NCBI RefSeq assembly: GCF_900114495.1
Contig: NZ_FOZI01000001.1
Coordinates: forward strand, 887,469 to 951,468
DNA: 64,000 bases
Source of the DNA: Dyella sp. OK004
GTDB lineage: Bacteria; Pseudomonadota; Gammaproteobacteria; Xanthomonadales; Rhodanobacteraceae
Direction: 5' to 3'
This document shows positions 37,657-39,162 of the stretch, in pieces (positions within the stretch are counted from its first letter, which is position 1; each line of letters starts with the position of its first letter). A program made the position numbers and the translations under genes. Under the pieces are notes generated by a model. That model was not told the DNA's origin. It ran no database searches and was given only the letters and a program-made list of their open reading frames with translations.

Positions 37657-39162
37657 ATGCAATACAAAAAGGCGCTTACGTTTGCCGTTCTTCTTGCCCT
37701 GGCTCCGGCCGGCAAGGCCATGGCGGCGATCGACCAGGTAGCCATTCCCGCGGCGGCAGAGTTGCCGGCGACACCGTCACCCGTCGCCAGCGGCGATTGC
37801 TCCAGTGGCTTCTTCTCGCGCCTGGCCGCGGCTTACCGCGAAGATGCACAGCCGGCCGACCCGAATGCTCCGGCGGCGAAGCGCCGTGGGATGGATTCGC
37901 CGTTCTCTTCGCCACCGTTCCCCTCCGCCGAATGGCAGCTCGGTGGCGTCGACTACCCGATCGGCGTGCCTAACGAGAACTCGCAGTACCCGCTGGAGAA
38001 AGCGCTCGCCTGCACCAAGCTCGGCCACTGGATGCAGGACAACCGCATTGAGACGTACGGTTGGATCAATCCTTCGATGAACATCAGCTCGTCGAGCCAT
38101 ACGAACTACCCGCTGTCGTACGCCACGCGGCCGAACCGGGTCGAGTTCGACCAGTTCCTGTTCCGCATCCAGCGCGTGCCCGACACGGTGCAGACGGATC
38201 ACATCGACTGGGGCTTCCACTTCGACGATCTGTATGGCTACGACTACCACTACACGACCATGAAGGGCATCACCAGCGACCAGCTGCTGCACAACCCGCG
38301 ACCGAACAGCGCGTTGAACGGAAAGGTCTATGGCAACGATCCGATGATTGCCTACGTCGACCTGTACATTCCGTGGGTGGCGCAGGGCATGGTGATCACG
38401 GCGGGCCGCTATCTGTCGCTGCCGGACATCGAGGCGCAGTTCTCGCCCAATAACTACTTGCTGACGCACTCGATCCTGTACACCGTCGATGCCTATACCA
38501 ACATGGGCGTCATCACCACTACCAAGCTCAACGATCAGTGGACGATACAGCTGGGTGTGCATGGCGGCGACGATTCGGCGATCTGGGACAAGACCAGCCG
38601 GCTCTCCGTGCAGGGCTGCGTGCGCTGGGTGTCCAAGTCCAACAACGACATGCTGTATCCCTGCGTGGAGTCGTACAACCACTCCAAGCAGACCTACAAC
38701 AACCTGCAGGAATTCGTGCTTACCTGGGGCCATCGCTTCAGCCCCGATGTGCACATGCTGACCGAGGCCTACCGCATTTACGTGCGTGACCAGGCCCTGG
38801 CCACGGACCCGTCGCAGTCACACGCTCCGACTGGCGTGCCGGGCTACCCGCTGGGTCAGGCGCCAAACTTTCCGCTGGGCAACAACCCGGCTTATGGCGT
38901 CGTCAACTATTTCAATATCGAACTCAACCCGAACAACATGCTGTCGATCCGGAACGAGTTTTATAAGGACGCGCAGGGACAGCGCACCGGTTTCGCCACG
39001 CGCTATACGAGCCACACGATCGGCATGACGCACTGGGTATCGCCGGACCTGGAGATCCGTCCGGAGCTGCGCTACGAGCATGCCTACGACTTCCCCGCCT
39101 ACGACGGCGGCACCAAGAACCATCAGGTGACCGCGCTCGTCGACGCGATCCTGCATTACTGA
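37657..39162 (+). CDS. Outer-membrane beta-barrel protein embedded in the kdp operon
   Basis: 501-aa exported protein. A signal peptide ([20 protein letters not shown]) is followed by a Pro/Ala-rich stretch, then alternating aromatic beta-strand patterns ending in a terminal strand that finishes LVDAILHY. Examples are [53 protein letters not shown] and FVLTWGHRF. It resembles the OmpL-like putative porin group (BBP2) rather than classic trimeric porins. The ATG at 37657 has AGGA upstream. It lies between kdpB and kdpC on the same strand, with kdpC starting 10 bp after its stop, so co-transcription with the K+ pump is likely. A role in passage of K+ through the outer membrane is inference. Confidence 0.8.

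Follow-up and report, generated by a model that had tools for sequence, protein, structure and literature searches.

A putative BBP2-family porin gene within the kdp potassium-pump cluster of Dyella sp. OK004 and its relatives

Organization of the kdp cluster

The DNA analyzed here, hereafter the window, is a stretch of 64,000 nucleotides of Dyella sp. OK004 (NZ_FOZI01000001.1, positions 887,469-951,468 of the forward strand; assembly GCF_900114495.1), which contains a complete kdp potassium-pump cluster in which a gene for a 501-amino-acid (aa) putative BBP2-family outer-membrane porin with a predicted 16-stranded barrel (37657-39162, + strand; Pfam BBP2 and AlphaFold2) is located between kdpB and kdpC. 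All genes of the cluster are on the + strand in the order kdpF-kdpA-kdpB-small gene-barrel-kdpC-kdpD-kdpE. KdpA (open reading frame (ORF) as listed, 33412-35247; TIGR00680, 756 bits, cut-off 387.7), KdpB (35281-37353; TIGR01497, 1072 bits, cut-off 527.9) and KdpC (39173-39751; NF001454, 282 bits, cut-off 178) exceed their NCBIfam cut-offs, and the true start of kdpA is probably the ATG at 33445, which overlaps the kdpF stop. The sensor kinase KdpD (39850-42516) is assigned by PF02702 (2.3e-93; NF007793 reaches 653 bits, below its cut-off of 1123), and the response regulator KdpE (42513-43214) by the response-regulator domains PF00072 and PF00486 (best NCBIfam match NF007820, 244.8 bits, below its cut-off of 325). 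The 30-aa KdpF (33356-33448) is identified from its ORF and sequence and from tblastn partners in relatives.

The position of the barrel gene between kdpB and kdpC on one strand had been proposed in a preliminary description of this DNA and is confirmed by the ORFs and profile matches, as is the distance of 10 bases from the barrel stop to the kdpC start. Exactly this gap recurs in 38 of the 54 measurable loci among 76 named loci, which were obtained by scanning 84,980 species genomes with two peptide patterns (divergent BBP2 would be missed) and which are mostly from Dyella, Rhodanobacter, Luteibacter, other Rhodanobacteraceae and Xanthomonas. The gaps are not short throughout, as had been described: the interval between kdpB and the barrel gene is 303 base pairs (bp). 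An empty interval is ruled out by a conserved 70-aa small gene inside it (37368-37580, + strand), which is supported by tblastn, a C-terminal motif and the ratio of nonsynonymous to synonymous substitution rates (dN/dS). The window has all the subunits and the sensor-regulator pair of the E. coli KdpFABC-KdpDE system and differs from it in the small gene and the porin, neither of which is known between kdpB and kdpC in E. coli.

Predicted structure of the barrel protein

The barrel protein, previously described as an orphan, is assigned by the Pfam search to BBP2 (PF07642, "putative beta-barrel porin-2") with 100.7 bits against a cut-off of 26.2 (E 1.3e-28). The match spans residues 142-500 and profile positions 13-338 of 339, and BBP2 is matched by all 58 members of alignment set A4, which comprises the window protein and those of 57 of the 76 named loci (L127, whose match joins pieces in different frames, was omitted, and 18 others were omitted for size). 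At E values up to 1, the barrel has no match in NCBIfam and none to Gcw_chp (PF09694), and no sequence relative is found among solved structures with the protein queried singly or as a profile. Residues 1-23 are judged by eye to be a signal peptide, in agreement with the preliminary description. A conserved N-terminal segment (residues 47-130), in which C48, C119, R76 and R77 are invariant, lies outside the Pfam match. The median dN/dS of 0.23 indicates purifying selection.

Structure modeling had been suggested beforehand as a test of the barrel. The AlphaFold2 model (predicted template-modeling score 0.75) is a porin-like transmembrane beta-barrel of 16 strands, on the basis of which a non-barrel fold is rejected; the protein is a putative outer-membrane porin that may have channel activity. 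The closest folds are those of the Pseudomonas phosphate porins OprP and OprO (2o4v and 4rjw; 11-12% identity), which share the 16-stranded porin fold. However, the barrel has no match to Porin_O_P (PF07396), BBP2 alone being listed at E values up to 1 and, at 0.001, in all 58 members of A4; additionally, a basic ladder is not evident, and the gene sits inside a pump operon. The presumed inward phase, assigned from the sequence and not from coordinates, contains 16 D/E versus 8 K/R. Residues 254-280 (38416-38496, + strand), between strands 5 and 6, are the putative constriction loop L3, by analogy with 16-stranded porins and as judged from the strand list, charges and conservation; D257 and E259 are conserved in this region, and K and R are absent from it.

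Because the nearest folds are anion porins, the main rival to a potassium channel holds that the pore passes a counter-ion or osmolyte (an anion, phosphate or an organic solute) required together with K+ uptake under osmotic or acid stress, and that it is regulated with Kdp since Kdp responds to such stress. The mild acidity of the barrel agrees with this explanation, and passages in PMC9062700, PMC7231039 and PMC8886135 tie Kdp to osmotic or acid stress in other genera. We nevertheless consider it unlikely, in that no Arg/Lys-rich ladder is evident in the sequence-assigned inward phase and the exchange of the barrel for another putative porin at this position, described below, is most simply explained if the shared substrate is that of the pump.

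Conservation in the family and order

In a sample of 99 genomes of relatives (own, genus, family and order), KdpC is present in 51 and a barrel orthologue in 23, and the orthologue is absent from all 48 genomes that lack KdpC (Fisher 1e-8, uncorrected for kinship). It immediately precedes kdpC in 22 of these 23 genomes; the exception, G026, has a kdpA-C-B operon in which the orthologue comes after kdpB and the small gene. A random insertion in one strain is ruled out by these orthologues together with the scan that gave the 76 loci, and this survey of Xanthomonadales relatives reveals that the gene in the kdp cluster is conserved across the family.

A Gcw_chp gene is located less than 300 bp upstream of kdpC in 16 family members, and in the loci read it encodes a TorF/Gcw_chp putative porin of ~270 aa in the kdpB-kdpC slot. 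Both the BBP2 barrel and Gcw_chp are carried by G005 and G007, and four others of the family, whose kdp operon is divergent (G009, G019, G030 and G040), have a Gcw_chp gene just upstream of kdpA. In total, 43 of the 45 kdp-bearing family genomes (kinship uncorrected) contain one or the other barrel gene as a same-strand member of the kdp cluster, and the chance expectation is ~0.25 such placements over 51 kdp-bearing genomes. The count of relatives omits two Gcw_chp matches under the family cut-off and does not treat as part of a cluster one Gcw_chp gene of G032, which lies on the opposite strand to a second kdpC, 5.6 kb away. The exceptions are G046, with neither barrel in the kdp cluster, and G029, whose only trace of a barrel between kdpB and kdpC is a weakly Gcw_chp-like stretch that the Pfam model misses. 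A barrel in the kdp cluster is close to a rule in the family and not an isolated insertion. In one of the six kdp-bearing genomes from the order's other families, G087, kdpC is preceded at a distance of 4 kb by a Gcw_chp gene. At locus L299, a stretch with weak similarity to Gcw_chp (8312-8614) stands between kdpB and kdpC where no intact barrel is present, and it is a possible remnant.

A second barrel family beside kdp

TorF/Gcw_chp (PF09694, TIGR02001) resembles the window barrel in that it occupies the same kdpB-kdpC slot in relatives or flanks kdp in other lineages, whereas it is about half as long (about 230-300 aa beside kdp). Detectable homology between the two families is rejected by profile comparison (hhalign probability 1.1%), and TorF/Gcw_chp has no convincing relative among solved structures. 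As the two are not detectably homologous, the kdp slot has seemingly been filled by porin-like proteins at least twice. Gcw_chp genes beside kdp occur in several Pseudomonadota families (L289-L298, L301, L302, L134, L146, L155, L157, L182, L185, L208, L213 and L243). The two barrel genes also adjoin each other in L303 (4997-7041), from a genome without kdpC, where inositol monophosphatase and complex I genes are nearby, and a BBP2-Gcw_chp pair is present in G361, which has no kdpC and no K+ gene among the neighbors scanned.

Association with different Kdp pumps

Among the 76 named loci, 58 have the order kdpB-(small gene)-barrel-kdpC, either in full or as far as the contig extends. Three Rhodanobacter loci have the order kdpA-C-B-small gene-barrel, and in four Xanthomonas loci the barrel is upstream of a kdp operon whose KdpA is 37-39% identical to that of the window; KdpA identity and gene order were used to distinguish the kdp lineages. 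In a midpoint-rooted maximum-likelihood tree, the Xanthomonas barrels nest within a 17-row group (support 100/99) of barrels from Dyella, Rhodanobacter and other Rhodanobacteraceae; those of the A-C-B loci nest elsewhere within the kdpB-barrel-kdpC set. On the simplest reading, the barrel gene would have moved and been attached anew to a kdp pump.

The other 11 loci have no kdp gene on the fetched locus, including L065 (X. maliensis), whose contig ends just behind the barrel. For eight of these copies, kdpC is found elsewhere in the genome. Two Luteibacter copies (L110 and L117) have the small gene directly upstream and a kdp-promoter-like region, and five second BBP2 copies (L105, L113, L115, L120 and L131; about 6001-7400) form one kdp-unlinked clade, which probably serves another role. 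Four records of this clade are titled Dyella and one Eremiobacteraeota. The records L096 and L131, titled Candidatus Eremiobacteraeota, carry Dyella-like kdp and BBP2 and are probably mislabeled or mixed.

Occurrence beyond the family

KdpC is present in 134 of 398 sampled Pseudomonadota genomes. At least 17 of the 134 carry a Gcw_chp gene no more than 6 kb away from kdpC, and the two genes share a strand in every case (18 of 18 pump copies); the window's family accounts for three of these genomes and its order for one more. The value is a lower bound, as 31 listed Gcw_chp places were taken, chosen by eye mainly for sharing a contig with kdpC; the sample left out the kdpC surroundings of G155, G159, G378 and G435 and the fragment G461:C15. 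Five gene orders were read, in which Gcw_chp occupies the kdpB-kdpC slot, follows kdpC, follows kdpA-C-B, precedes kdpA or precedes kdpB-A-C. BBP2 is over its cut-off in 38 of the 398 genomes, and only the window's own copy adjoins kdpC when the places are compared by eye.

These counts bear on a further explanation, namely that genome dynamics happened to place a general-purpose porin in the kdp operon, where it brings no benefit specific to kdp. Genes of this kind are common (at least 215 of the 398 genomes have Gcw_chp), most kdp operons outside the family are without a barrel among the matches listed, and some BBP2 copies are unlinked to kdp. However, the family counts given above make passive hitchhiking unlikely, with 43 of 45 placements versus ~0.25 expected (kinship uncorrected), and the survey strongly weakens this explanation. 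Additionally, two unrelated barrel families are found beside kdp with the cluster members on the same strand, BBP2 is associated with three kinds of kdp operon and Gcw_chp with five gene orders, and the barrel is under purifying selection. We regard an origin by genome dynamics as highly improbable.

KdpC is also encoded in 466 plasmid records, of which three regions were examined. No porin is listed in the stretch for the Methylocystis and Sphingobium kdpC regions; in a Mycetohabitans megaplasmid (L263), a Porin_4 gene (5951-7117) is located 368 bp after kdpC, possibly a third porin type, although this single case is not taken as evidence. Distant BBP2 porins occur in four plasmid records, and kdp is absent in the three regions examined (NC_017539 was left out).

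The combination of a kdp operon and an outer-membrane porin is already known from one short precedent in another phylum. In Leptospirillum, a BBP2 (PF07642) porin is reported downstream of kdpABC (PMC7231039), adjoining the kdp cluster as in the window, whereas the phylum differs (Nitrospirae as named there) and the porin follows the cluster, with a gadC permease and another kinase after it. The account in section 3.4.1 of that paper is a single sentence, and that section describes neither a structure nor a small protein. In the relevant passages of PMC12542777, PMC9062700, PMC7231039, PMC11722782 and PMC8886135, only PMC7231039 reports a porin with kdp, and no further report of a porin in a kdp operon was met in a search of full-text literature, which has subscription journals and preprints outside its scope.

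Promoter elements

A KdpE-box-like promoter element, AAAATTTACGCGTTCTATACGC, is located upstream of kdpF (33100-33121, + strand). Its matrix score is 42.4, and the next-best site in the 64 kb scores 4.4, the matrix being trained on kdpF upstream regions that include the window. The box pattern AAATTTTACGCGTTCTATACGC, picked after viewing the regions, is present upstream of kdpF in 41 of 46 regions. From its position and resemblance to the E. coli site, we take the element to be a KdpE site, to which KdpE may bind. A sigma-70 promoter scan of 33000-43500 yields no site.

Related elements accompany some barrel genes that lie apart from kdpF. The boxes of the Luteibacter copies L110 and L117 score 9.9, higher than any other site on the two strands of the seven unlinked loci that were scanned as one set. 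Of 300 shuffles each, 0 and 7 equal the local alignment of their upstream regions with the window kdp promoter; the five other second BBP2 copies, which serve as controls, show no kdp-promoter similarity by local alignment. In Xanthomonas, a related box is visible 5' of both the barrel gene and kdpF in L066, L067 and L071. The alignment of the barrel and kdpF upstream regions is reached by 2 of 300 shuffles for L066 and 1 of 300 for L067 and is not significant for L071 and L072 (27 of 300 and 49 of 300). We infer that the barrel gene is co-transcribed with kdp and under KdpE control.

Two other features are found near these elements and genes. A GC-rich hairpin directly 5' of the barrel gene (37624-37640) is terminator-like on the - strand only and may shape mRNA processing or translation near the barrel start. 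A 30-aa ORF 5' of kdpF (33202-33294, + strand; from the ORF list), situated between the KdpE-like box and kdpF, is hydrophobic and has no Pfam match; it possibly encodes a small membrane peptide. A 34-aa ORF annotated "potassium ABC transporter ATPase" is similarly placed in Mycetohabitans L263.

The conserved 70-aa protein

The 70-aa protein ends in DDYVLGGYAGI, and the C-terminal Y-x-LGGYAGI is invariant or near-invariant among homologues. It is found by tblastn in 54 of the 76 named loci and by the C-terminal motif in four further loci (L070, L101, L110 and L117). The gene follows kdpB in 51 of the 58 standard BBP2 loci by tblastn and in two more by motif, and it is also present in several TorF loci, in A-C-B operons and in the two Luteibacter stand-alone units; in G030, where BBP2 is absent, it follows kdpC and the TorF gene precedes kdpA. 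The protein is undetected in the BBP2-kdp loci L009, L078, L108, L127 and L129, in the four Xanthomonas loci, in several TorF loci and in the phylum-wide loci. This distribution across BBP2, TorF, A-C-B and stand-alone loci indicates that the protein is linked to kdp and often to a porin. Its median dN/dS values of 0.46 and 0.38 in two sets (0.23 for the barrel) indicate purifying selection. The protein has no match in Pfam or NCBIfam and no signal peptide visible by eye, and it may be cytosolic; its structure model is poor (mean confidence, pLDDT, 58.8), with three strands predicted at low confidence. It probably works with the pump or in its regulation and, being a conserved small product of a much-studied K+ pump operon, is a candidate new Kdp regulator or subunit.

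The frequent company of the small protein also raises the explanation that the barrel is a sensor or signaling accessory that reports outside K+ to KdpD or to the small protein, its pore function being secondary. The conserved segment 47-130 outside the Pfam match, with its invariant cysteines and arginines, would suit such a role, as would the usual presence of the small protein with the barrel (51 of 58 loci plus two by motif), including both Luteibacter stand-alone copies. However, Gcw_chp barrels of about 230-300 aa fill the same place, the small protein is undetected in the five BBP2-kdp loci, the four Xanthomonas loci and the several TorF loci named above, and one genome pairs it with a TorF-type kdp cluster that has no BBP2. 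We give very little credence to a sensory role.

Proposed role in potassium uptake

The barrel is probably an outer-membrane porin that is functionally part of the Kdp regulon and feeds K+ to the pump, and the near-constant pairing of porin and pump in the family suggests a matched K+ route through both membranes. When K+ is scarce, KdpD/KdpE would switch on a single transcript for KdpFABC, the sensor, the small protein and the 16-stranded channel. The channel, if selective for K+, would raise the permeability of the outer membrane such that micromolar K+ reaches the periplasmic face of KdpA, and the barrel would thus constitute the outer-membrane half of a low-K+ uptake route. A parallel is provided by OprP, a porin that serves phosphate uptake in Pseudomonas. 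A pore induced by K+ starvation that feeds the pump had been proposed in the preliminary description; the predicted barrel fold, the family conservation and the kdp-like promoter at the two Luteibacter copies (less surely at some Xanthomonas copies) favor this proposal, and its elements of K+ conduction, induction and feeding keep their conjectural standing.

General porins are commonly taken to let K+ pass freely across the outer membrane. Neither Porin_1 nor Porin_4 has a match in the host genome, which does carry four full-length Porin_O_P genes; its outer membrane may thus rely on specific channels, and K+ entry could become limiting when Kdp works, as it does, at micromolar K+.

Several observations weigh against a K+-feeding porin. 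The four Porin_O_P genes indicate that other channels exist in the host, the closest fold is an anion porin, and the charges of the presumed inward phase are weakly acidic. Among the matches listed, 116 of the 134 kdp-bearing Pseudomonadota genomes are without BBP2 or Gcw_chp beside kdp, which indicates that a dedicated porin is not generally needed. Three unlinked copies are from metagenome-assembled genomes in which no kdpC was found, and these, like the five second copies, are away from kdp and without the box or the small gene. Additionally, the Luteibacter box scores of 9.9 are below the lowest training site (12.7), and the Xanthomonas promoter similarity is clear in only two of the four loci.

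A broader proposal, which we advance tentatively and hold at somewhat below even chances, is that several lineages independently joined one of two unrelated barrels to Kdp, giving a recurrent two-membrane K+ system with a KdpE-controlled, K+-dedicated porin, and that in this family a cytosolic small protein (YxLGGYAGI) couples or tunes the pump. If true, the porin would be, to our knowledge, the first outer-membrane channel devoted to potassium. The near-universal kdp-linked porin-like gene in one family, in a host that has no Porin_1 or Porin_4 match, points to the outer membrane as a possible bottleneck for K+, to which some bacteria would respond with a dedicated channel. The uncharacterized BBP2 and TorF/Gcw_chp barrels beside kdp would thereby gain a concrete, testable substrate.
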